DNA of 64,000 nt. Source: an uncultured Pelagibacteraceae bacterium (GTDB taxonomy: Bacteria; Pseudomonadota; Alphaproteobacteria; Pelagibacterales; Pelagibacteraceae). Where the stretch lies: NCBI GenBank assembly GCA_902567945.1, contig CACFOC010000002.1, positions 37,436 through 101,435 on the forward strand. Direction: 5' to 3'. The notes under the pieces were generated by a model. The model was not told the DNA's origin and ran no database searches. It worked only from the letters and a program-made list of their open reading frames with translations. Position numbers and translations under genes: made by a program. Below, one piece after another: positions 4,849-40,057 of the stretch (the stretch's first letter is position 1; the number at the start of each line of letters is the position of its first letter).

Positions 4849-7281
4849 TTATGCTTTTAATAATTTGTTTTCTGGATCATAAGGACTCTCATCCAAAATT
4901 GTAGCGTCGTGCATTTTACCTAAAATATCAATTTTTAATTTTTGACCTGTTGTCGCAAGTTCAGGTTTAACCATCCCTAAAGCGATTGATTTATTTAACC
5001 TAAAGCCATAATCACCCCCTGTTGCTCTACCAACAACTTTGTTGTTTTGATAAATAGGGTTGTTTCCTAGAACATCTGCATCAGTTATATTATGTACTTC
5101 AAGTGTAACTAACTTGTTTTGAAAACCTTTTTCTCTCCATTTATTAAGAGCTTCTAGTCCTATAAAATTTCCTTTATTTGGGTGTACAAATCTGTCTAAC
5201 CCAGACTCGTAAGGTGAATACTCAATGGATAATTCTGTTCCTACTAATTTATACGATTTTTCAACTCTTAAACTGTTCATAGCTCTAATACCAAAGGGTT
5301 TTATACCTAGATCTTTTCCTGCTTCCATTAATTTATCAAATATATGATTTTGATATTCCATAGGATGATGAAGTTCCCAACCTAACTCTCCTACAAAGTT
5401 TACTCTCATTGCATTAACTGGTGCATAACCCACATTAATTTGTTTTGAACTCAGCCATTTAAAATTTCCGTTTGAAAAATCATCTTTTGAAACTCGTTGC
5501 ATTAGTTCTCTTGCTTTAGGTCCAGAAACAACCAATACACCAATACTGTTTGTTAAATTTTCAAACTGGACTGATCCATCTTTTGGCATCCATTTAAGTA
5601 TCCAGTCATGATCTAATCTTTGAAAGGCACCTGCTGATACTAGATAAAAACTGTCTTCGGCTTCTCTCATAATAGTGAATTCTGAGTGAACACCCCCTTT
5701 TGTATTAAGTGCGTGACATAAATTTATTCTACCAATTTTTTTTGGAAGTTTATTTGCAACTAAATAATCTAAAAATGTCTCTGCTTTTGGTCCTTTAATT
5801 CTGCATTTAGCAAATGCTGTCATATCTAAAAGACCAACATTCTCTTTCACGTTTTTGCATTCTTTTTCTACAGCTTTAAACCATTTTGATCTTCTGAATG
5901 ACCAATCATCTTTTTGTTCCATTCCATCTACTGCAAAAAAATTTGCTCTCTCCCAACCAAATTTTTGACCAAATACGGCGCCAAGATTCTTTAATCTTTC
6001 ATAACATGGTGCAGTTCTTAAAGGTCTTGCTGCAGATCTTTCTTCGTCAGGGTAGTGAATAATAAATACATTTCGATAAGCTTCTTCGTTCTTTTCTTTT
6101 AAATATGACTTGGTTGCATAATCACCATATCTTCTTGGTTCAACGCCAAGCATGTCAATTGTTGGTTCACCATCTATAATCCATTCTGCTAGTTGCCAAC
6201 CTGCTCCGCCCGCTGCTGTAATACCAAAGCTATGGCCTTCATTAATCCAAAAATTTTTCACTCCCCATGCAGGACCAACAATTGGATTTCCGTCTGGAGT
6301 ATAACAGATTGCTCCGTTATAAACTTTTTTTACACCCACTTCTTTAAAGATTGGAACTCTATGGTAAGCACTTTCAATATGAGGTGTAAGTCTTTCTAAA
6401 TCTTCTTGAAATAATTCATATTCTGAATCTTTTGATGGACCATCTACATAACAACATGGTGCACCATCTTCATATGGTCCTAATATTAATCCACCTGCTT
6501 CTTCTCTCATATACCAACGATTGTCACTGTCTCTAAGCACTCCCATTTCTGGAAGACCTTCTTTTTTTCTTTTTTGTATTTCCGGATGTGGTTCAGTAAC
6601 TATGTATTGATGTTCAACTGGTATTACTGGAATATCTAAACCAACCATTTTACCTGTTTGTCTAGCAAAATTTCCTGAACAAGAGACAACATGTTCGCAT
6701 TCAATTGTTCCTTTATCAGTTTCAACAATCCATCCATTTTTTGTTTGTTTAATTCCTACGACAGTTGTGCTTCTATAAATTTCTGCTCCTTTGTTTCTAG
6801 CCCCTGTAGCTAAAGCTTGAGTTAAATCAGCTGGCTGAATATATCCATCTTCAGGATGTTGAATTGCTCCAATCAATCCCTCAGTGTTGCACAGTGGCCA
6901 AATTTCTTTTACTTGTTCTGGCTTTAAAAATTTTACATTAACACCGATTGTTTGTGCTACTCCTGCATATTGATGATATTCATCCATTCTATCTTTTGTG
7001 CTTGCTAACCTTATATTTGACACAACGCTGAAACCTACATTCTTCCCAGTTTCTTTTTCTAATGTTTTGTAAAGATTGACTGCATACTTATGAAGTTGGC
7101 CCACTGAATAGCTCATATTAAAAAGGGGTAATAAGCCTGCTGCATGCCAAGTCGATCCAGAAGTTAGTTCTTTTCTTTCAACTAAAACAACATCTGACCA
7201 TCCTTTTTTTGCTAAATGGTAAAGCATACTTACTCCAACTACTCCACCACCTACTACGACAACTTTAGCTTTTGATTTCAT
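4849..7281 (-). CDS. Dimethylglycine/sarcosine dehydrogenase-like protein (FAD oxidoreductase + GcvT)
   Basis: Two-part enzyme: an N-terminal DAO-type FAD domain (VVVVGGGVVGVSM) and a C-terminal GcvT-like folate-binding half, as in mitochondrial dimethylglycine and sarcosine dehydrogenases. STWHAAGL holds the His (H46 from the start used here) that carries covalent FAD in that family. It would demethylate dimethylglycine or sarcosine, giving 5,10-methylene-THF and passing electrons to ETF. I use the ATG at 7281 (MKSKAKVVVVGGG, 810 aa); the ORF-track start adds 15 unlikely residues. First gene of the ETF operon. The exact methylamine substrate is inferred. Confidence 0.88.
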   Translation of the reverse strand: MKSKAKVVVVGGGVVGVSMLYHLAKKGWSDVVLVERKELTSGSTWHAAGLLPLFNMSYSVGQLHKYAVNLYKTLEKETGKNVGFSVVSNIRLASTKDRMDEYHQYAGVAQTIGVNVKFLKPEQVKEIWPLCNTEGLIGAIQHPEDGYIQPADLTQALATGARNKGAEIYRSTTVVGIKQTKNGWIVETDKGTIECEHVVSCSGNFARQTGKMVGLDIPVIPVEHQYIVTEPHPEIQKRKKEGLPEMGVLRDSDNRWYMREEAGGLILGPYEDGAPCCYVDGPSKDSEYELFQEDLERLTPHIESAYHRVPIFKEVGVKKVYNGAICYTPDGNPIVGPAWGVKNFWINEGHSFGITAAGGAGWQLAEWIIDGEPTIDMLGVEPRRYGDYATKSYLKEKNEEAYRNVFIIHYPDEERSAARPLRTAPCYERLKNLGAVFGQKFGWERANFFAVDGMEQKDDWSFRRSKWFKAVEKECKNVKENVGLLDMTAFAKCRIKGPKAETFLDYLVANKLPKKIGRINLCHALNTKGGVHSEFTIMREAEDSFYLVSAGAFQRLDHDWILKWMPKDGSVQFENLTNSIGVLVVSGPKARELMQRVSKDDFSNGNFKWLSSKQINVGYAPVNAMRVNFVGELGWELHHPMEYQNHIFDKLMEAGKDLGIKPFGIRAMNSLRVEKSYKLVGTELSIEYSPYESGLDRFVHPNKGNFIGLEALNKWREKGFQNKLVTLEVHNITDADVLGNNPIYQNNKVVGRATGGDYGFRLNKSIALGMVKPELATTGQKLKIDILGKMHDATILDESPYDPENKLLKA

Positions 7282-7337
7282 AAATAAATAAGGTAAATTT
7301 CTAAATATAACCATAAGATAGGTCAAGTTAGATTTAA

Positions 7338-9362: not shown

Positions 9363-10787
9363 CTATTTATTTAAAGTAGCCAACACCTCAGCTTCACGAG
9401 TATTTGCATTGAATGACTGAGTAAAAGGTATAGGTACAACTACCGCATCAACTGGTTTATTGGAGTATTTTTTTGGTAAATGAACTTTGTATTTTTTACC
9501 AAAATTTCCGATTGGAAACCCTTTAGGACTTTTGTGCCCTTCATATGGAACATATCCCATTGCAATGTTTTTTTTCTTTTCTGGGTGATACCAAGGAGAT
9601 GTAATATAACCTATTGGTTTTCCTCCTTTTACATCTGAAATTAGCCAAAAGTCTGGAGCATATTCTTCTATTGGTTTTCCTCCTAGTTCCATACCTACGA
9701 GTTGAAGTTTGTAAGGTTTTTTTCCTTGTTGAATTTCTTCTTTCATTTTTTCTAAAGCTTCTTTTCCCACATAGTCTGTTTTTTTATTCCATTCACCTTT
9801 GCCAGACAAAGAAACTTGATAACCCAAGTTACACTGAAAAGGATTATGTTCATTATCCATATCTTGACCCCAAGACAAAATTCCTGCTTGGATTCTTCTA
9901 TGGTGAGCAGGAGCAATAACCATTAGCTTATGTTTCTTTCCAGCTTTAAGAACAGCATTCCACATATCCTCTGCGTATAAAGTGGCATCACGAAGATAAA
10001 TTTCATATCCAGCTTCACCAGAAAATCCTGATTGAGAAATCACACAGCTTCTACCTCCTACTTTGGCTTCCGCCAGACCATAAAAAGGCATGTTATCTAA
10101 ATCAACTTGATCTCCAATTAAATCATTTAATAGTGCTTTTGATTTAGGGCCTTGTATTTGTACTGGACATGCATCTATTTCATCTATTTCTACATTGAAT
10201 TTTTTATCAGCATTAACACCTTGTAAGTACATTCCAATATCAGAATCTGACAAACTAAACCAAAACTCATCATCAGCCACTCTTAATAAAACTGGATCGT
10301 TTAATACGCCACCTTTATTATTACAAAGAATAACGTAACGACCTCTCATTGTTGAAATTTTAGTTGCATCGCGTGTTATTACATAATCTGTAAATTTTTC
10401 TGCGTCTGGTCCTTTCACGCGAATTTGTCTCTCTACAGCTACATTCCACATTGTTACGTGATTTTTAATTGCTGCATATTCAACCATAGCTCCACCTTTT
10501 TCAGGTTTTACATAACCTCGTGGATGATATACACGATTATAAACTGTAGCTCGCCAGCAGCCGGCTTTCATTGATAAATGCCAGTAGGGAGATTTTCTTA
10601 CTCTTGTTGAAATTAACAATTCTACTTTTGTTGGTCCGCTTTGTCTTAAGTTGTACGGCACGTGTCGATCTGACTGATCAACAGATGTAACGTGTCTAAC
10701 TTTATCGTAATTAACCTTTTCAGGTTTAAATGAAACTGATTTATGTTTTTTAACTTTATTTTTTTTAGATTTTTTCTTTTTAGGCAT
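9363..10787 (-). CDS. DmdA/LigM-like tetrahydrofolate-dependent methyltransferase (GcvT fold)
   Basis: A GcvT/aminomethyltransferase-fold protein. The core from residue 60 on (VRKSPYWH, NHVTMWNVAVERQIRVKG, LNDPVLLRV, SGFSGEAGYEIYL, DNEHNPFQCNLG) follows DMSP demethylase DmdA rather than glycine-cleavage T protein. It is longer than the roughly 370-aa SAR11 DmdA I remember: a Lys-rich leader (MPKKKKSKKNK) of about 60 residues and a C-terminal extension (VDAVVVPIPF) like that of vanillate demethylase LigM (about 470 aa). It would move a methyl from a sulfonium, amine or ether to THF. Its start overlaps the MetF-like stop by 8 bp. Substrate unknown. Confidence 0.75.
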   Translation of the reverse strand: MPKKKKSKKNKVKKHKSVSFKPEKVNYDKVRHVTSVDQSDRHVPYNLRQSGPTKVELLISTRVRKSPYWHLSMKAGCWRATVYNRVYHPRGYVKPEKGGAMVEYAAIKNHVTMWNVAVERQIRVKGPDAEKFTDYVITRDATKISTMRGRYVILCNNKGGVLNDPVLLRVADDEFWFSLSDSDIGMYLQGVNADKKFNVEIDEIDACPVQIQGPKSKALLNDLIGDQVDLDNMPFYGLAEAKVGGRSCVISQSGFSGEAGYEIYLRDATLYAEDMWNAVLKAGKKHKLMVIAPAHHRRIQAGILSWGQDMDNEHNPFQCNLGYQVSLSGKGEWNKKTDYVGKEALEKMKEEIQQGKKPYKLQLVGMELGGKPIEEYAPDFWLISDVKGGKPIGYITSPWYHPEKKKNIAMGYVPYEGHKSPKGFPIGNFGKKYKVHLPKKYSNKPVDAVVVPIPFTQSFNANTREAEVLATLNK

Positions 10788-11484
10788 AATTATTCTCCAT
10801 CAACCATTTGTTTGTTTCTTTAAGACCACCAAAAGTATAAATATGAAAATTATTTGTTGAGGATTTAAGTTTTTCAATTATATCACTTGGGTCTTTTGGT
10901 TTTAATAAATCTACAGCCTTAGTTACATTAGATTTAAGAAAATTAATTGAATTTTTTGCCCCAACAATATTTGCAAACTTTAATAAACTACTTATTTTTA
11001 GAGGCCCAGTAATTCCTACATGAACTGGTAAAGTTTGCTTAGAAATATATTTAGCTATTGGATTAACATCTAATAACCATTGTGTAACTATATAGTCAGC
11101 GTAAGGTTTTTTATCGATCATAGCTTTTTCTAAATCTGGATCGGATATATCAGGGGACCCATCTGGATGTCCAGCGATTCCTATCTTCCAACCCTCAAAT
11201 AATCCCGTCTCTAATAATTGTAAAGAACAGTGAAAATCTCCAATGGGTTGCGCGCTCCCCCCTATTACTAGAGCTTGTTTTACTCCCCCATCCTTACATC
11301 TACTTACATAATCTTTTAATTCAGCTTGATTTTTTAAAGAACGAGCAGGAAAATGAGGTACTGGATTAAAGCCAGATTTAACAAGTTCAGTGGCTTTAGT
11401 TGCCACCTCTCTGTAATCATTACCCGGAAGCATAGTAATATAAACATCTTTAATTTTAGGTAATTCTGAAAGATCAGTCTTCAT
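10780..11484 (-). CDS. MetF-like methylenetetrahydrofolate reductase homologue, short and atypical
   Basis: A TIM-barrel protein of the methylene-THF reductase type, 234 aa from the ATG used here (MKTDLSELP; an in-frame ATG at 11514 adds 10 residues). Recognisable parts are NPVPHFPARSL, GIAGHPDGSPD and the VTQW strand, matching PHL, YPExHP and FTQ of MetF. The FEFFPP block with the catalytic Glu and the RGD motif with the flavin-site Asp are absent (MLPG and IGGSAQP instead). It may be flavin-independent or non-reductive. It is coupled to the demethylase gene, so a role in handling methyl-THF is likely. Confidence 0.65.
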   Translation of the reverse strand: MKTDLSELPKIKDVYITMLPGNDYREVATKATELVKSGFNPVPHFPARSLKNQAELKDYVSRCKDGGVKQALVIGGSAQPIGDFHCSLQLLETGLFEGWKIGIAGHPDGSPDISDPDLEKAMIDKKPYADYIVTQWLLDVNPIAKYISKQTLPVHVGITGPLKISSLLKFANIVGAKNSINFLKSNVTKAVDLLKPKDPSDIIEKLKSSTNNFHIYTFGGLKETNKWLMENNYA

Positions 11485-11489
11485 GGTAA

Positions 11490-11501
11490 TTTCTATAGAA
11501 A
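11490..11501. promoter_or_regulatory. 12-bp perfect palindrome near the MetF-like start
   Basis: TTTCTATAGAAA is a perfect 12-bp palindrome 5 bp upstream of the ATG at 11484 (minus strand). It could be an operator or part of a -10 region (TATAGA). AT-rich palindromes of this length arise by chance in such a genome, so this is only suggestive. Confidence 0.25.
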
Positions 11502-11523
11502 AATTCATAATCAACGGGATATA

Positions 11524-11548
11524 CCAGCGGTCCCTGGGGACTGTCCAG
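11524..11548. promoter_or_regulatory. GC-rich hairpin with competing pairing, intergenic
   Basis: In an otherwise AT-rich divergent intergenic region, the plus strand reads CCAG-2nt-GTCC-CTGG-GGAC-3nt-CCAG. GTCC/GGAC can form a stem whose loop, CTGG, is complementary to the CCAG on either side, so a compact pseudoknot or switch between two folds is possible. The symmetry works on either strand, so it could sit in the 5' leader of the Rieske operon or of the MetF-like operon. I cannot match it to a known riboswitch class. Confidence 0.4.
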
Positions 11549-11550
11549 TA

Positions 11551-11564
11551 ATTTCATTTGAAAT
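11551..11564. promoter_or_regulatory. Inverted repeat, possible operator of the divergent catabolic operons
   Basis: ATTTCA-TT-TGAAAT is a perfect inverted repeat directly beside the GC-rich hairpin and about 37 bp before the Rieske gene start. Its position between two divergent catabolic operons suits a regulator site. No regulator gene lies next to it. Confidence 0.3.
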
Positions 11565-11601
11565 CTATTGCCTATTTATACGGAAATGCTAGGATTTTTC
11601 T

Positions 11602-12798
11602 ATGACTGAGAAGCTTAATGGAAAAAGAAATATCTATGATATCGTAAAAAAAGAAAAATTAGATGTTGTTAATGAACCAATAGAAAAAGCCCACGGTCTT
11701 CCTAACGAATGCTACAATAATATTGAATATAGTAAAATAGAAAGGAAAAAACTCTTCGAAGATAAATGGGTTGTAATAGGTGTTGCTAGTTCAATACCCA
11801 AGCCTGGAGATGCAAAACCTTTCGATTTACTAGGAATACCTTTAATTTTATTAAGAAATAAAAAAAATCAAATCAAAGTCTATCATAATGTTTGCAGTCA
11901 TAGAGGATATAAAATTTTACAAAAAAAATGCTCTATAAAAAACGTAATAAGATGTCCTTACCATTCCTGGTCTTATAATTTAGATGGCAGACTTGTAACC
12001 ACTCCTCATTTGGGAGGAATGGATAAGCACGAATCTAAGAATTTTGATAAGTCTTCAAGTAATCTTAAAGAAGTTCGTTCCTATGTTTGGTTAGATATGA
12101 TTATCGTAAACATTTCTAATAATGAAGTATCGTTTGATGAATATATTAAACCATTAAAAGATCGATGGTCTAAGTTTTGGCCAGAAAAAGATCAAAAACT
12201 AATTAAACACTCAAATGACTTTGGTTATTTTAATTTAAAAGCAAAGTGTAATTGGAAATTTGCTATTGAAAATTATTGTGAAAGTTATCATTTACCCTGG
12301 GTTCATCCAGGTTTAAATAGTTATTCTAAAATTAGTGATCATTATCATATACAAGGTTTGCCAAATAGATTCGCTGGGCAAGGCACTATCGTTTACAATC
12401 CTAGGCTAAAAGGAAAAAATAAATTTCCATGTTTTCCTAATTGGCCAAAAAGTAAAATAAATATAGCTGAATATGTTGCTCTTTTTCCTAATGTGATGAT
12501 GGGCATTCACAAAGATCATTACTACGCATATTGGCTAGAGCCAGTAAATCATGAATTTACTATAGAACACATGGAAATTTATTATGTAGGTAATGAAGCT
12601 GCAAATTCAAAAAAATTTAAAAGCTTGAGAAAACAAAATTTAAAACTCTGGCATAGTGTTCAATTAGAAGATGTTCATATTATAGAAGGCATGCAAGAGG
12701 GAAGAAATTCTCCTTCGTATAATGGTGGAAACTTCTCACCAGTTATGGACAATCCTACTCACCATTTTCATAAATGGGTAGCTACAAATTTGGTTTAA
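11602..12798 (+). CDS. Rieske non-heme iron oxygenase, alpha subunit
   Basis: A 398-aa ring-hydroxylating-type oxygenase. The N-terminal Rieske 2Fe-2S site is C98/H100 (CSHRGY) and C118/H121 (CPYHSW). The catalytic iron ligands are H230 and H235 (ESYHLPWVH) and D357 (QLEDVHI). The shape is closest to Rieske monooxygenases that demethylate quaternary amines (glycine betaine, carnitine or stachydrine type), but aromatic substrates are possible. No reductase or ferredoxin is encoded beside it. First gene of the operon; the next gene starts 1 bp after its stop. Confidence 0.85.
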   Translation: MTEKLNGKRNIYDIVKKEKLDVVNEPIEKAHGLPNECYNNIEYSKIERKKLFEDKWVVIGVASSIPKPGDAKPFDLLGIPLILLRNKKNQIKVYHNVCSHRGYKILQKKCSIKNVIRCPYHSWSYNLDGRLVTTPHLGGMDKHESKNFDKSSSNLKEVRSYVWLDMIIVNISNNEVSFDEYIKPLKDRWSKFWPEKDQKLIKHSNDFGYFNLKAKCNWKFAIENYCESYHLPWVHPGLNSYSKISDHYHIQGLPNRFAGQGTIVYNPRLKGKNKFPCFPNWPKSKINIAEYVALFPNVMMGIHKDHYYAYWLEPVNHEFTIEHMEIYYVGNEAANSKKFKSLRKQNLKLWHSVQLEDVHIIEGMQEGRNSPSYNGGNFSPVMDNPTHHFHKWVATNLV

Positions 12799-12799
12799 T

Positions 12800-14035
12800 A
12801 TGAGATTTAATAGAAAAATTATCCCAGATACAAAACCTAAACAAACTTTTGTAACAAAAAAAAGATTAAGAGAAGATGAAATAGATTTTGCTAAACTTAG
12901 ATCTTACAGATTAGATCGAGTTAAAAAAGAATTAGAAAAAAATAATCTTGAAGCTTGTATATTATTTGACCCTGTTAATGTCAGATACGCACTTGATTCA
13001 GTAAATATGAGTATCTATAATATGCATAATTTAACGCGTTATTGTTTTATACCCGTCAACGGCCCAGTAATTCTTTATGAATATTTTAACTGTGAAAAAT
13101 TATCTGAACATTTAAATTTAATTAATGAAATTAGACCGGCTATAACTTGGGATTATTTTAGTAATGGAGATCAAGCTGGAATCCAATTAGAAAAATGGAT
13201 TAATGAAGTAAATGATTTATCAAATTCATATTTTAAAACTAAAAAATTGGCAATTGATGTAATTAATGGTCCAGCAATAACAGCTCTGAATAAATCTGGT
13301 ATTGAAGTTGTGGATGCAAAATCAATAGTTGAACAGGCAAGAGTTATTAAATCACCAGAAGAATTAAAATGTATGAAGGCAGCTATCGATGTTGCAGAAA
13401 TTGCAGTTAACAAAATGAGAAATGAAGTAAAAGCTGGAATGACTGAAGATGAACTTTGGTCAATCTTACACAAAACTAATATTGAACATGGTGGAGAATG
13501 GGTTGAATGTAGAATTTTATCATCTGGAGAGAGAACAAATCCATGGATGCAGGAAAGTAGCAATAAAATAATTCAAAGTGGTGAAATGGTATCTTTTGAT
13601 ACTGATATGGTAGGTCCCTATGGATATTGCGCAGATATTTCCAGAACTTTTGTTGAGGGACATAAATTTAGTGAGGAACAAAAAAAATTATACTTAATGG
13701 CAGCTGACCAAATAAATCACAATTCTAGATTAATTAAATCAGGGTTATCTTTTAAAGAATTCACTGAAAAATCTTGGAAACTTCCAGAAGAATATTATGG
13801 CAATAGATATTCATGTATGGTGCATGGAATTGGCCTTTGTGATGAATGGCCACAGATAAAATATCCAACTGATGGTGGTCAAAGAGAAGGTTATTTTGAA
13901 AAAAATATGACTATTACAGTTGAAACTTATATTGGAAAAGTTGGTGGAAAAGAAGGAGTAAAATTAGAACAACAATATTTAGTTGGTGAAAATGGACTTG
14001 AGTTAATGTCCCACCATCCTTTAGAAGATTTATAA
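12800..14035 (+). CDS. DddP-like M24-family protein (candidate DMSP lyase)
   Basis: A creatinase/aminopeptidase-P fold protein, 411 aa. It follows DMSP lyase DddP closely in GGEWVECRILSSGERTNPW, SFDTDMVGPYGYCADISR and CMVHGIGLCDEWP. The two-metal site residues I recall from the Ruegeria lacuscaerulensis enzyme are all present with matching spacing: D267, D269, D279, H342, E375, E390, plus the proposed base D348 and Y337. The second Asp of DTD separates DddP from ordinary M24 peptidases. DddP splits dimethylsulfoniopropionate to DMS and acrylate. The neighbours do not prove that substrate, so I leave the symbol blank. Confidence 0.78.
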   Translation: MRFNRKIIPDTKPKQTFVTKKRLREDEIDFAKLRSYRLDRVKKELEKNNLEACILFDPVNVRYALDSVNMSIYNMHNLTRYCFIPVNGPVILYEYFNCEKLSEHLNLINEIRPAITWDYFSNGDQAGIQLEKWINEVNDLSNSYFKTKKLAIDVINGPAITALNKSGIEVVDAKSIVEQARVIKSPEELKCMKAAIDVAEIAVNKMRNEVKAGMTEDELWSILHKTNIEHGGEWVECRILSSGERTNPWMQESSNKIIQSGEMVSFDTDMVGPYGYCADISRTFVEGHKFSEEQKKLYLMAADQINHNSRLIKSGLSFKEFTEKSWKLPEEYYGNRYSCMVHGIGLCDEWPQIKYPTDGGQREGYFEKNMTITVETYIGKVGGKEGVKLEQQYLVGENGLELMSHHPLEDL

Positions 14036-14040
14036 TTAAA

Positions 14041-14892
14041 ATGAATAGTAGATTAGAAAACATTGTCGACCTTAAAAAATATCCAATTCAAGATTTAAAT
14101 TCTCCATTGATAAAAGAATTAATAAAAAAATGTAAAAGAGATTTGGATCAGTTTAGTTGTGCTACTATTCCTAATTTTATTTTACCTAAATCTTTAAAAA
14201 TAATGAACGTAGAGTTAGAAAAAAAAATTGATGAAGTTTATATGTCAAAACAAAGTATCAACGCATATTTATATTCTAAGGATGATCCTTCGTTGCCCAA
14301 AGATCATCCTAAAAGAATATTTATGGAACGTTATAATGGATATTTAAATTCAGATATTTTTCCAAAAGACTCGGAGATGAAATTTCTTTATGAACAAGAT
14401 GAACTTTTAAATTTTGTGTCTGCATGTCTTGGAATATCACCTATTTATCGCTGGGCAGACCCTTTGGCTTGCCATGCGTACAATGTTATGAGACCAGAAG
14501 GTATTCTTCCTTGGCATTTTGATAGCTGTGAGTTTACTTTAAGTTTCATGATACAAAAACCTGAAAAGGGTGGAATATTTGAGTATTGCCCGAACATTCG
14601 TAAGCCAGGAAATGAAAATTTAGAAGAAGTTAAAAAAGTGCTTGATGGAGATCGTAAAAGAGTTCGTCAATTAAAATTAGAACCTGGAGATCTCCAAATT
14701 TTTAAGGGTCGTTTTACGCTTCATCGTGTTACAAAAATAGAAGGTAATCGTTCAAGGTATCTTTGTATACCTGCTTACGTACTAGACCCTTGGAGAGTTA
14801 ACACTCCTGAACATGCTAAGGCTATTTATGGAAAAGTTTTACCAATTCATATAGAAAGAAATAAAGCTAGATCAGACGGTCTAGCTGATTAA
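14041..14892 (+). CDS. PhyH-type Fe(II)/2-oxoglutarate-dependent dioxygenase
   Basis: A 283-aa jelly-roll oxygenase of the phytanoyl-CoA dioxygenase superfamily. The iron triad is visible as H159 and D161 (WHFDSCEF) with the distal H228 (TLHRVTKI); R237 or R239 would hold 2-oxoglutarate. The family hydroxylates small molecules or lipids with release of succinate and CO2. It starts 5 bp after the DddP-like gene and 3 bp before the aldolase. A sensible role is to add a hydroxyl that the aldolase can then use for C-C cleavage. Substrate unknown. Confidence 0.78.
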   Translation: MNSRLENIVDLKKYPIQDLNSPLIKELIKKCKRDLDQFSCATIPNFILPKSLKIMNVELEKKIDEVYMSKQSINAYLYSKDDPSLPKDHPKRIFMERYNGYLNSDIFPKDSEMKFLYEQDELLNFVSACLGISPIYRWADPLACHAYNVMRPEGILPWHFDSCEFTLSFMIQKPEKGGIFEYCPNIRKPGNENLEEVKKVLDGDRKRVRQLKLEPGDLQIFKGRFTLHRVTKIEGNRSRYLCIPAYVLDPWRVNTPEHAKAIYGKVLPIHIERNKARSDGLAD

Positions 14893-14895
14893 TTT

Positions 14896-15627
14896 ATGAC
14901 AGACAAAGATATTAATATTAGACAAGAACTTGCAGCTTTATATCGTCTACTAGATATGTATGGAATGAGTGATTTAGCAAATCAATGTGCAGGAGCACGT
15001 TCAGTTGAAAATAAAGATAATTATTTTATTCATCCTTATGGGATGTTTTATAATGAGATAAAGGCTTCTTCCTTGATAAAAATTGACAAAGACGGGAAGC
15101 CAGTTGAACTAAATAGTCCGTGGTTAAATGATGGATGTATTAACCTTGCTAAATGGATTTTTCCTGCAAGAGAAGACACCAATTATTTTGTACATGGTCA
15201 TTGCGAAGAAGTTATGGCTGTTGGTGGCACAGAAGAAGGATTACAATATTTTTCACAAGCGGCAGTATATTTAAATCATCTTATTGGATATGTTGATTAT
15301 GAATTTGTCGAGGATAACGAATATGGTAAAAAATTTATGTCACTTATAAAAAAGCATGAAATTTTAATTACACGTAATCATGGTTATTATACTGTTGGAA
15401 AAACTGCAGCAGAGGCATTTTTTAAAGCATATTATTTAAAACAAGCTTGTTCAGTTCAAATTAAAAATTTATCAATGAGATTAACGCCGCGCCCAATAGA
15501 TAAGCAAAAAGTTGAATACTGCTGGCAAAATATGTCTAAATCCGAAGATTATAATTATGACGGCAAAACTGAATGGGCCGCTCTATTAAGAAAATTGGAT
15601 AAAGAGCAACCAGATTATAAATTGTGA
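14896..15627 (+). CDS. Class II aldolase/adducin-family protein
   Basis: A 243-aa protein of the fuculose-1-phosphate aldolase/ribulose-5-phosphate 4-epimerase fold. Metal ligands H100 and H102 (FVHGHCEEV) and H162 (RNHGYYTVG) are in place. Such enzymes break or make C-C bonds next to a hydroxyl, or decarboxylate. It sits between the 2OG oxygenase and the Gfa gene in one operon, with a GTGA overlap to the latter, which points to a small catabolic substrate and not to sugar metabolism. Confidence 0.8.
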   Translation: MTDKDINIRQELAALYRLLDMYGMSDLANQCAGARSVENKDNYFIHPYGMFYNEIKASSLIKIDKDGKPVELNSPWLNDGCINLAKWIFPAREDTNYFVHGHCEEVMAVGGTEEGLQYFSQAAVYLNHLIGYVDYEFVEDNEYGKKFMSLIKKHEILITRNHGYYTVGKTAAEAFFKAYYLKQACSVQIKNLSMRLTPRPIDKQKVEYCWQNMSKSEDYNYDGKTEWAALLRKLDKEQPDYKL

Positions 15628-15989
15628 AAAAAACTAGCAAAACAGAAATTTTAACCTGTCATTGCAAAGAAGTGAAAATTGAATTGAAGTTAGATAAGGA
15701 TCTTGAAGAATTGGTTAGGTGTAATTGTTCTTTATGCATAAAACGCGGTTCAATTATGGCTAAAATAAAATTAAATAAGCTAAAAATAATAAAAGGCGTT
15801 GAAAAATTGAAGCGTTATAAATTTGGAAAAAATAAAGCTGAACATTTCTTTTGCTCTATATGCGGAATATATACACATCATAAATCATACACTAATCCTG
15901 AAAATTACGAATTCAATGTTGCGTGTTTGGATAATATTGATACTTTTAAATTTAAAGATGTTCCTGTTTTTGATGGAAAGAAATTATAG
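15624..15989 (+). CDS. Gfa/CENP-V family zinc protein
   Basis: A 121-aa glutathione-dependent formaldehyde-activating (GFA) domain protein, GTG start overlapping the aldolase stop (GTGA). Zinc cysteines: C12, C14 (TCHC), C33, C35, C38 (CNCSLC), C77, C80 (CSIC). Family members bind zinc, and some have been linked to glutathione-formaldehyde adducts. Being last in an operon with a Rieske oxygenase that could release formaldehyde makes a protective role attractive but unproven. A paralogue is at 39503-39871. Confidence 0.8.
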   Translation: MKKTSKTEILTCHCKEVKIELKLDKDLEELVRCNCSLCIKRGSIMAKIKLNKLKIIKGVEKLKRYKFGKNKAEHFFCSICGIYTHHKSYTNPENYEFNVACLDNIDTFKFKDVPVFDGKKL

Positions 15990-16003
15990 TAAACTTAGTT
16001 AGT

Positions 16004-17437
16004 TTAGTTCCAGCCACCAACTGTTTTGACTTCTAAAAATTCTATAAGACCTTCAGTTCCAGCTTCACGGCCAATTCCTGAATGTTTATATCCGCCAAAA
16101 GGAGAAGCAACGGCTATACCAACTCCATTAACGTCTACCATTCCAGATCTAAGTTTTCTTGCCACTCTTTGGACTTTTTCTTTATCTTGAGTTTGAATAT
16201 AATTTGTCAAACCGTAAGGAGTGTCATTTGCTATTGAAATAGCTTCTTCTTCATTTTCAAAAGGAATTATAGATAATACTGGTCCGAAAATTTCGGTTCT
16301 TGCAATTTCCATTTGATTATTAACATCAGCAAAAACAGTCGGTTTTACATAATAACCTTTTTCTAAACCTTTAGGTTTACCAGTCCCGCCCGCAACTAAT
16401 TTTGCTCCTTCGTCTATTCCTTTTTGAATTAAAGTTTGAATTTTATTGAACTGTACTTCGGAAACCACAGGCCCAATATGATCTCCGTCTTTTTGTGGAG
16501 AATCCACCTTAGTGTTATTTGCTAATTCTTTTACTTTTTCTACAGTTTCTTTGTAAATTGATTTTTCAACAAGCATTCGTGTAGGAGCATTGCAGGACTG
16601 TCCTGAGTTTCTAAAACATCTTAGAACACCTCGTGCTATCGCTTCTGAATCGGCATCTTTAAAAATTATGTTTGCGCCTTTTCCACCTAATTCTAAACTA
16701 ATTCTTTTAAAATCTTTTGCAGCATTTTGAGAAATTAATGCACCAGCTCTGGTTGATCCTGTAAAAGAAATCATATCAATATCAGGATGACTGGTTAAAG
16801 CATCTCCCGTAACAGCTCCGTCTCCATTTACTAAATTAAAAACACCTGGGGGAAATTTGGCCTCATCAATCATTTCAGCAAGTAACATTGATGACAAAGG
16901 CGCTATCTCTGATGGTTTTAAAACTACTGTACATGCTGATGCTAAAGCAGGAATTACTTTTAAATTAACTTGATTGATTGGCCAATTCCAGGGTGTAATC
17001 AAAGCACAAACACCTTTTGGCTCATACAATAATTTTTGATTATTTTTTTCTTCACCTAAATCTTTTTCAAATTTGAAATCTTTTAATATATTTTTAAAGG
17101 ATTTAATGTGGCTAGCTCCTGTGGCAGCTTGCATTTCTGTTGAAAATTTCATGGGAGCCCCCATCTCAAGAGTAATCAATTTTGCCATATCAGCCCATCT
17201 TTTTTTATAAATAACATATAATTTTTCCAATAATTCTAATCTCTCTTCTTTTTGTGAGAAAGCCCAAATGCCAAAAGCTTTTTTTGCAGCACTAACTGCA
17301 TTGTCTATATCTTTTTTTCCTCCAAGAGATATTTCTGCACAAGGTTCTTCATTTGATGGGTCAATTACTTTGTAATTTCTAGGCTCTATTGGAGAGACCC
17401 ATTTTCCATTGATATAAAATTTTTTTTTGTCTAACAT
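16004..17437 (-). CDS. NAD(P)-dependent aldehyde dehydrogenase
   Basis: A 477-aa ALDH-superfamily enzyme. Catalytic N151 (PWNWP), E249 (LELGGKGANII) and C282 (NSGQSCNAP) are all present, so it should be active in oxidising an aldehyde to the acid. The overall type is that of betaine-aldehyde or semialdehyde dehydrogenases. It converges on the Rieske/aldolase operon with a 14-bp gap and could oxidise the aldolase product, though it is on its own transcript. Substrate not determinable. Confidence 0.88.
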   Translation of the reverse strand: MLDKKKFYINGKWVSPIEPRNYKVIDPSNEEPCAEISLGGKKDIDNAVSAAKKAFGIWAFSQKEERLELLEKLYVIYKKRWADMAKLITLEMGAPMKFSTEMQAATGASHIKSFKNILKDFKFEKDLGEEKNNQKLLYEPKGVCALITPWNWPINQVNLKVIPALASACTVVLKPSEIAPLSSMLLAEMIDEAKFPPGVFNLVNGDGAVTGDALTSHPDIDMISFTGSTRAGALISQNAAKDFKRISLELGGKGANIIFKDADSEAIARGVLRCFRNSGQSCNAPTRMLVEKSIYKETVEKVKELANNTKVDSPQKDGDHIGPVVSEVQFNKIQTLIQKGIDEGAKLVAGGTGKPKGLEKGYYVKPTVFADVNNQMEIARTEIFGPVLSIIPFENEEEAISIANDTPYGLTNYIQTQDKEKVQRVARKLRSGMVDVNGVGIAVASPFGGYKHSGIGREAGTEGLIEFLEVKTVGGWN

Positions 17438-39871: not shown

Positions 39872-40057
39872 TTATTTATTTTTAATTTAAATTCTTTAGC
39901 ATGATTTTCATATCGTGGTAATAGTTATCCACATCATAACTAAATCTAGTTTTAATGTTCATGCTTTGATTCAGTTTAGATTCTTTTTTGGACTCAAAAT
40001 ACAACCTAATAGTTACTTTTTCACAGCTTGCTATATTGTGTTTCATATTATAAATTA

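Follow-up and report, generated by a model that had tools for sequence, protein, structure and literature searches.

SAR11 bacteria are the most abundant bacteria of the ocean. We analyzed a locus in the 869-kb genome (71.6% complete) of a SAR11 bacterium of the Pelagibacteraceae that combines genes for a Rieske non-haem iron oxygenase, a DddP-like metalloenzyme of the M24 fold, an Fe(II)/2-oxoglutarate (2OG) oxygenase, and a folate-dependent demethylase (GcvT) with a MetF-like partner. It lies at positions 9363-17437 of a stretch of 64,000 nucleotides, hereafter called the window (contig CACFOC010000002.1, positions 37,436 to 101,435). Each of these proteins resembles a described system: the Rieske protein resembles the group V oxygenases (the carnitine monooxygenase CntA/YeaW, GbcA, and Stc2), the M24 protein the dimethylsulfoniopropionate (DMSP) lyase DddP, and the 2OG oxygenase the halogenases HalD and BesD. 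Catabolic clusters for (hydroxy)proline betaine hold Rieske, enolase-family, DapA-family, flavin adenine dinucleotide (FAD) oxidase, and aldehyde dehydrogenase (ALDH) genes together; to our knowledge, neither an M24 enzyme nor a HalD-like oxygenase is part of that pathway. Finally, the adjacent aminomethyltransferase and metF genes SAR11_1265 and SAR11_1264 of Candidatus Pelagibacter ubique were discussed in 2011, with the speculation that SAR11_1265 removes the second methyl group of DMSP, i.e., demethylates methylmercaptopropionate (MMPA) (Sun et al., PMC3160333). In a sulfur-limitation study, the expression of these two genes was about ten-fold lower in later conditions (PMC5069961).

We interpret the core of the window locus as a SAR11 module for the catabolism of a carboxylated quaternary-ammonium osmolyte, i.e., a betaine, and assign this interpretation a probability of about 0.5. 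No paper in the literature that we searched, with most subscription journals outside the search, describes a distinct Rieske subfamily combined with an M24 protein like DddP and a HalD-type hydroxylase, and nothing usable on homarine or proline-betaine pathways was found. The original prediction, made from the window sequence, knew of no described pathway with this exact gene set. The GcvT-metF pairing is already known from 2011 (PMC3160333) and is not new here.

Conserved core and exchangeable genes in SAR11

All eight open reading frames (ORFs) that the original prediction had placed in this region are present in the ORF listing, and searches of the window proteins against Pfam and NCBIfam profiles confirmed their domains, with three corrections. 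The features are as follows.

9363-10787, minus strand: GcvT-fold, DmdA-related folate-dependent demethylase (PF01571, 141 bits)
10780-11514, minus strand: short MetF-like protein, overlapping the GcvT gene by 8 bp, with a methylenetetrahydrofolate reductase match in the PDB
11515-11601: divergent intergenic region of 87 bp between the two operons
11602-12798, plus strand: Rieske non-haem iron oxygenase (PF00848, PF00355)
12800-14035, plus strand: M24-fold metalloenzyme, DddP-like, after a gap of 1 bp from the Rieske gene
14041-14892, plus strand: Fe(II)/2OG oxygenase of the HalD type (PF23169), earlier labeled PhyH
14896-15627, plus strand: class II aldolase/adducin-family protein (PF00596)
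15624-15989, plus strand: Gfa-domain protein (PF04828, 40.7 bits), overlapping the aldolase gene by 4 bp
16004-17437, minus strand: ALDH, convergent (PF00171)

The five plus-strand genes, from the Rieske to the Gfa-like gene, are separated by 1-5 bp or overlap, and the convergent ALDH gene ends 14 bp from the end of the Gfa-like gene. From its overlap with GcvT, the MetF-like gene is predicted to be translationally coupled to it.

To examine conservation, we used 80 loci obtained from a genome scan for close relatives of the Rieske protein, labeled as Pelagibacteraceae or just as alphaproteobacterial or Pelagibacterales. The window proteins were mapped to these loci and all their ORFs were clustered; many of the loci are truncated by contig ends. 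The Rieske cluster comprised 79 ORFs, the M24 cluster 70, the MetF cluster 60 (beside GcvT), the 2OG oxygenase cluster 59, and the GcvT cluster 57, the last from 57 of the 80 loci. The conserved set consists of these five genes, with GcvT and MetF on the minus strand and the Rieske, M24, and 2OG oxygenase genes on the plus strand. The original prediction had named a lack of co-occurrence outside this genome as the result that would speak against it; co-occurrence was found both in the 80 SAR11 loci and in other proteobacteria (see below).

In some SAR11 lineages, the Rieske, M24, and 2OG oxygenase genes are passed on together as a compact block next to the GcvT-MetF pair. Of 99 sampled Pelagibacteraceae genomes, 49 had GcvT, 28 the Rieske gene, 22 the 2OG oxygenase, and 20 M24. 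M24 occurred in 20 of the 28 genomes with the Rieske gene and in 0 of the 71 without it (Fisher p = 7e-15), a p value that ignores shared ancestry and genome incompleteness and thus shows nesting rather than independent events; similarly, 21 of the 22 genomes with the 2OG oxygenase also had the Rieske gene. The spacing between the Rieske and M24 genes was 0-6 bp in 16 of the 18 genomes compared. The pairwise distances of all five proteins were correlated (r = 0.37-0.72, permutation p = 0.001; weakest for M24), a signal that shared species history by itself would also give.

The remaining three genes behave differently. A window-type aldolase with >60% identity was found in one of the 80 loci (L065, 76%), a Gfa-like protein in about 16, and close relatives of the window-type ALDH in eight, and the loci with these window-type genes are all among those most similar to the window; the ALDH is confined to the clade of the window. 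Other loci carry instead a class II aldolase of another cluster (c28), a carnitine-dehydrogenase-like protein (c16), an FrhB-type flavoprotein (c31), or an alcohol dehydrogenase. The aldolase, Gfa-like, and ALDH genes are lineage-specific exchangeable cargo, and because they are exchangeable in SAR11 relatives, they are not integral parts of the module, as had been proposed; the co-located set holds beyond chance for the five core genes and is not conserved for these three. The Gfa-like protein was rejected as a bona fide Gfa, S-(hydroxymethyl)glutathione synthase (TIGR02820, 24.2 bits; cut-off 234.55), and neither the aldolase nor the ALDH reached any of the specific cut-offs shown. In many SAR11 loci, the M24 and 2OG oxygenase genes are separated by two small genes, one APS-kinase-like and one NMN-adenylyltransferase-like (e.g., L064:16488-16898 and L051:13259-13633); these are absent from the closest relatives of the window.

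The 87-bp intergenic region is occupied by inserted genes in most SAR11 relatives, and in many of them the gap between the MetF-like and Rieske genes holds ProW, ProX, BHMT, a DMGDH-like FAD-GcvT fusion, and an S-adenosylmethionine methyltransferase. In the window itself, an FAD oxidoreductase-GcvT fusion (DMGDH/sarcosine dehydrogenase-like) is located close to the module at 4849-7326 on the minus strand, and many SAR11 loci have a close relative of it (88-97% identity) in the vicinity of the module, on one side or the other. At gathering scores, an Rfam scan gave no match to an RNA element within the module; elsewhere in the window, the SAR11_0636 small RNA (RF01827) matched at 39917-40006 on the minus strand with 70.2 bits (gathering score 67).

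Active sites of the core enzymes

In the Rieske protein, Y225, E227, H230, H235, and D357 align with Y203, E205, H208, H213, and D323 of CntA and are invariant among relatives. The bridging Glu (E227) and the 2-His-1-Asp iron ligands of group V are present, and Y225 occupies the position of the aromatic residue of subgroup Va (CntA Tyr203), which has been tied to quaternary-ammonium substrates (PMC7948474). The protein differs from the described group V members in that it belongs to its own supported subfamily in the tree, apart from CntA/YeaW and a GbcA-type protein (124 bits with the GbcA model; cut-off 670), and in that the Cys-X-X-Cys pair is absent: CntA Cys206 and Cys209 correspond to S228 and L231. 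This pair, located near the iron in some group V members, is discussed in PMC10952381. The relatives of the Rieske protein in other bacteria differ further in being adjoined by a rubredoxin-type reductase.

The 2OG oxygenase had been called a PhyH (phytanoyl-type) enzyme, a label that we replace with HalD-like. It scored 45.3 bits with the HalD family PF23169 (gathering cut-off 26), is weakly similar to BesD in the PDB, and matched HalD and WelO5 only among Pfam families at an E value of 0.001, with no PhyH match; an assignment as a phytanoyl-CoA dioxygenase was therefore rejected. Residues H159, D161, H228, and R239 are invariant in 25 sequences. Halogenases of this kind carry an HxG/A motif and hydroxylases HxD. 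Because the invariant motif H159-F-D161 has no Gly or Ala at the Asp position, the protein is probably a hydroxylase of a carbon chain, and its assignment as an Fe/2OG halogenase, as in HalD and BesD, was also rejected. For both this protein and the Rieske protein, AlphaFold gave poor models (mean predicted local distance difference test scores of 50 and 57, respectively).

The M24 protein has all six metal ligands of DddP (D267, D269, D279, H342, E375, and E390), and its Y337 and D348 correspond to the proposed catalytic residues Tyr366 and Asp377; the DddP residues are taken from PMC4108388. These positions are invariant among relatives. It differs from DddP in scoring 355.6 bits, below the NCBIfam cut-off of 600, and in its linkage to nitrogen-betaine genes. 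In six loci from relatives of the window (L004, L005, L007, L008, L009, and L016), we found a second M24 allele with 71-77% identity to the window protein, whereas the adjoining Rieske proteins are 84-92% identical to that of the window, which suggests a replacement of M24 alone.

The GcvT protein had been described as DmdA/LigM-like. The LigM part of this label was discarded (34.4 bits; cut-off 580); the nearest curated family is DmdA (240.6 bits; cut-off 410), with orthologues in relatives also at about 240. GcvT is not DmdA itself, as it is below this cut-off and has Phe in place of DmdA Trp171 in the aligned motif QSGFSGEAGYEIY; Trp171 is a DMSP contact residue (PMC7487153). It keeps Glu178 and Tyr180 of the DmdA folate site. 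Related genomes have separate, true DmdA genes that exceed the cut-off. The MetF-like protein had no Pfam match and scored 23.6 bits with TIGR00677 (cut-off 310), yet residues 18-239 of 244 matched the PDB methylenetetrahydrofolate reductase 7xg9 (E = 1.1e-31). The pair fits SAR11_1265-SAR11_1264 by description; the 2011 paper differs in naming no Rieske gene and in guessing MMPA as the substrate. Ten genomes without the Rieske gene (G324, G330, G352, G357, G368, G370, G372, G377, G382, and G390) gave GcvT matches interrupted by one or two stop codons, which could reflect decay or effects at the match edges.

Linkage outside SAR11

We extended the analysis to 289 genomes drawn from the class Alphaproteobacteria, together with named records. 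The 289 genomes contained six pairs of 2OG oxygenase (PhyH) and M24 genes within 5 kb of each other, where about 0.3 would be expected, and five of the six pairs were <250 bp apart on the same strand. The Rieske and M24 genes adjoin in G079. In an AT-rich alphaproteobacterial lineage with a 1.4-Mb genome (L107), one cluster holds the Rieske and M24 genes, and the genes that separate them encode BHMT, ALDH, a DAO oxidase, and a DapA-family protein; M24 stands beside BHMT in both L107 and L108, the latter with two tandem BHMT copies. Pseudomonas sp. MPC6 carries a Rieske-ALDH-rubredoxin reductase-DAO-EutQ-MFS-M24 cassette and, about 26 kb away, a second cassette of PhyH (54% identical), M24 (49%), and FrhB (49% to c31); both are on one plasmid and are accompanied by BCCT and ProXWV transporters.

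The Rieske-ALDH pair is common to Oceanisphaera, Cupriavidus, Leisingera, and an Acinetobacter baumannii record, and rubredoxin is fused to its reductase in Oceanisphaera and Cupriavidus. An operon of Rieske, ALDH, rubredoxin reductase, and DAO, in some cases with EutQ/cupin, is conserved in Pseudomonas, Oceanisphaera, Cupriavidus, and A. baumannii (L188:1-7534, L189, L190, and L196). In Sinorhizobium meliloti and Parasedimentitalea, M24 lies beside MttB-type trimethylamine methyltransferases and FAD-dependent oxidoreductases of the DMGDH type. The Rieske, enolase-family, DapA-family, FAD oxidase, and ALDH genes found together in L107 and Leisingera are reminiscent of (hydroxy)proline-betaine clusters; the SAR11 module, where we observed neither an epimerase nor a DapA gene, differs in this respect.

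The SAR11 contig L016 has the order Rieske-ALDH-M24-PhyH and encodes an ALDH that shares 45-48% identity with the Rieske-linked enzymes of these non-SAR11 bacteria. Judged by sequence, the window ALDH, which is 35% identical to that of L016, differs from this Rieske-linked enzyme of L016 and other bacteria, and the window is without the latter. Because the L016 enzyme is nearest to non-SAR11 ALDHs and the linkages recur, a common history that reaches beyond SAR11 is probable for the Rieske protein, the ALDH linked to it, M24, and the 2OG oxygenase. A chance neighborhood of the core was rejected on the excess of PhyH-M24 pairs and the nesting of M24 in genomes with the Rieske gene, and the two-cassette plasmid of MPC6 and the gene order of L016 argue strongly against it.

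Proposed pathway and substrate, and their significance

The original prediction of methylated onium or methoxy catabolism probably holds for a methylated onium compound, although some of its enzyme labels did not stand. A quaternary-ammonium carboxylate is favored over DMSP or a methoxy aromatic because of the Rieske signature and the ProX/ProW, BHMT, DMGDH-like, MttB, and BCCT neighbors. We infer the substrate class, the order of steps, and each reaction as follows. The betaine would be taken up by a ProXW-type ABC transporter. The Rieske enzyme would oxidize a carbon on the quaternary nitrogen, either by N-demethylation or by a CntA-like C-N cleavage that yields an aldehyde, and the 2OG oxygenase would hydroxylate the carbon chain. 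M24 may then hydrolyze or eliminate the modified intermediate at a dinuclear metal site. Depending on the lineage, the products of the variable genes further downstream (class II aldolases of two kinds, carnitine-dehydrogenase-like, Gfa-like, ALDH, and FrhB) would complete the chain. GcvT-MetF may move a further methyl group onto tetrahydrofolate, and the resulting methyl-tetrahydrofolate would be oxidized to methylene-tetrahydrofolate.

Several observations weigh against this interpretation. In six of the seven complete or near-complete g3 genomes sampled, the Rieske gene occurs without M24, so it can persist without it, and the second M24 allele is discordant with the Rieske protein. GcvT is present in 22 of the 99 sampled genomes without the Rieske gene and may therefore serve another pathway. 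The transporter and BHMT genes may be merely neighbors in a betaine-rich genome region. With respect to electron supply, the FAD_binding_6 (PF00970) reductase domain was found in none of 13 SAR11-order genomes, a further difference from group V, and a search of 17 genomes (15 Pelagibacteraceae and two of the L107/L108 family; 14 of the 17 at least 90% complete) revealed neither a rubredoxin domain nor that of a rubredoxin reductase. The idea that rubredoxin feeds the SAR11 Rieske enzyme, as the operons of its relatives suggested, is thus unsupported.

The strongest competitor, which we regard as unlikely, is that a tolerant chromosomal site has collected two or three small operons of independent function: GcvT-MetF, Rieske-M24, and PhyH together with its cargo. 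The nested and unequal counts among the 99 genomes, the lineage-specific inserts, the location of PhyH about 125 kb away in G339, and the weak distance correlations of M24 are consistent with such an island. However, the joint recurrence of the Rieske, M24, and PhyH genes outside SAR11 in several arrangements is left unexplained by a site that tolerates insertions in SAR11, so the island explanation is weaker for these three genes than for the cargo and GcvT-MetF. We consider it likely that Rieske-M24-PhyH belong to one pathway; the membership of GcvT-MetF, a pair with a wider distribution that matches SAR11_1265-1264 as described, is uncertain.

Among alternative substrates, a sulfonium compound is improbable. 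In such a module, GcvT-MetF would demethylate DMSP or MMPA, and M24 would be a DddP-family lyase of DMSP or dimethylsulfoxonium propionate. The complete set of DddP metal ligands and catalytic equivalents in M24, the proximity of GcvT to DmdA, the MMPA demethylation proposed for SAR11_1265 in 2011 (PMC3160333), and a protein near the Rieske operon of Oceanisphaera that exceeds the DddP cut-off (626.5 bits) would all suit it. Nevertheless, both GcvT, with Phe at Trp171, and M24 are below the respective cut-offs, related genomes have separate true DmdA genes, and the Rieske signature and the BHMT and MttB neighbors indicate nitrogen compounds. Within the nitrogen compounds, carnitine, gamma-butyrobetaine, or trimethyllysine is slightly less probable still. 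Here the 2OG oxygenase would hydroxylate the beta carbon, c16 or the aldolase and ALDH would process the product, and the glycine betaine formed would pass to BHMT. The carnitine-dehydrogenase-like c16 lies directly 3' of PhyH in many SAR11 loci, G211 has a PhyH-dehydrogenase-aldolase operon whose aldolase is 59% identical to SAR11 c28, and the best NCBIfam model of the window ALDH is betaine-aldehyde dehydrogenase (TIGR01804, 431 bits; cut-off 668.6). On the other hand, c16 scored 353 bits against a carnitine dehydrogenase cut-off of 414, the 2OG oxygenase matched neither the gamma-butyrobetaine nor the trimethyllysine dioxygenase models of NCBIfam, and A. baumannii has a separate protein of this Rieske subfamily in addition to CntA. 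Moreover, cis-3-hydroxyproline-dehydratase-like enolases in the G211 and Leisingera neighborhoods point to proline-type betaines instead.

Tentatively, and at a likelihood well short of even, the module may belong to a widespread and undescribed strategy of betaine degradation in alpha-, beta-, and gammaproteobacteria including SAR11. This would combine a distinct Rieske subfamily using a non-classical electron donor (rubredoxin outside SAR11) with a hydroxylase of the HalD type and an M24 enzyme that, being DddP-like, treats a nitrogen osmolyte as DddP treats DMSP. Many M24 genes labeled as DddP-like or "Xaa-Pro peptidase" may need reassigning. SAR11 handles much of the labile dissolved carbon of the ocean, and each methylated osmolyte that it can use bears on carbon and nitrogen turnover; the patchy distribution of the Rieske gene (28 of 99 genomes) would mark the lineages that use one specific compound.

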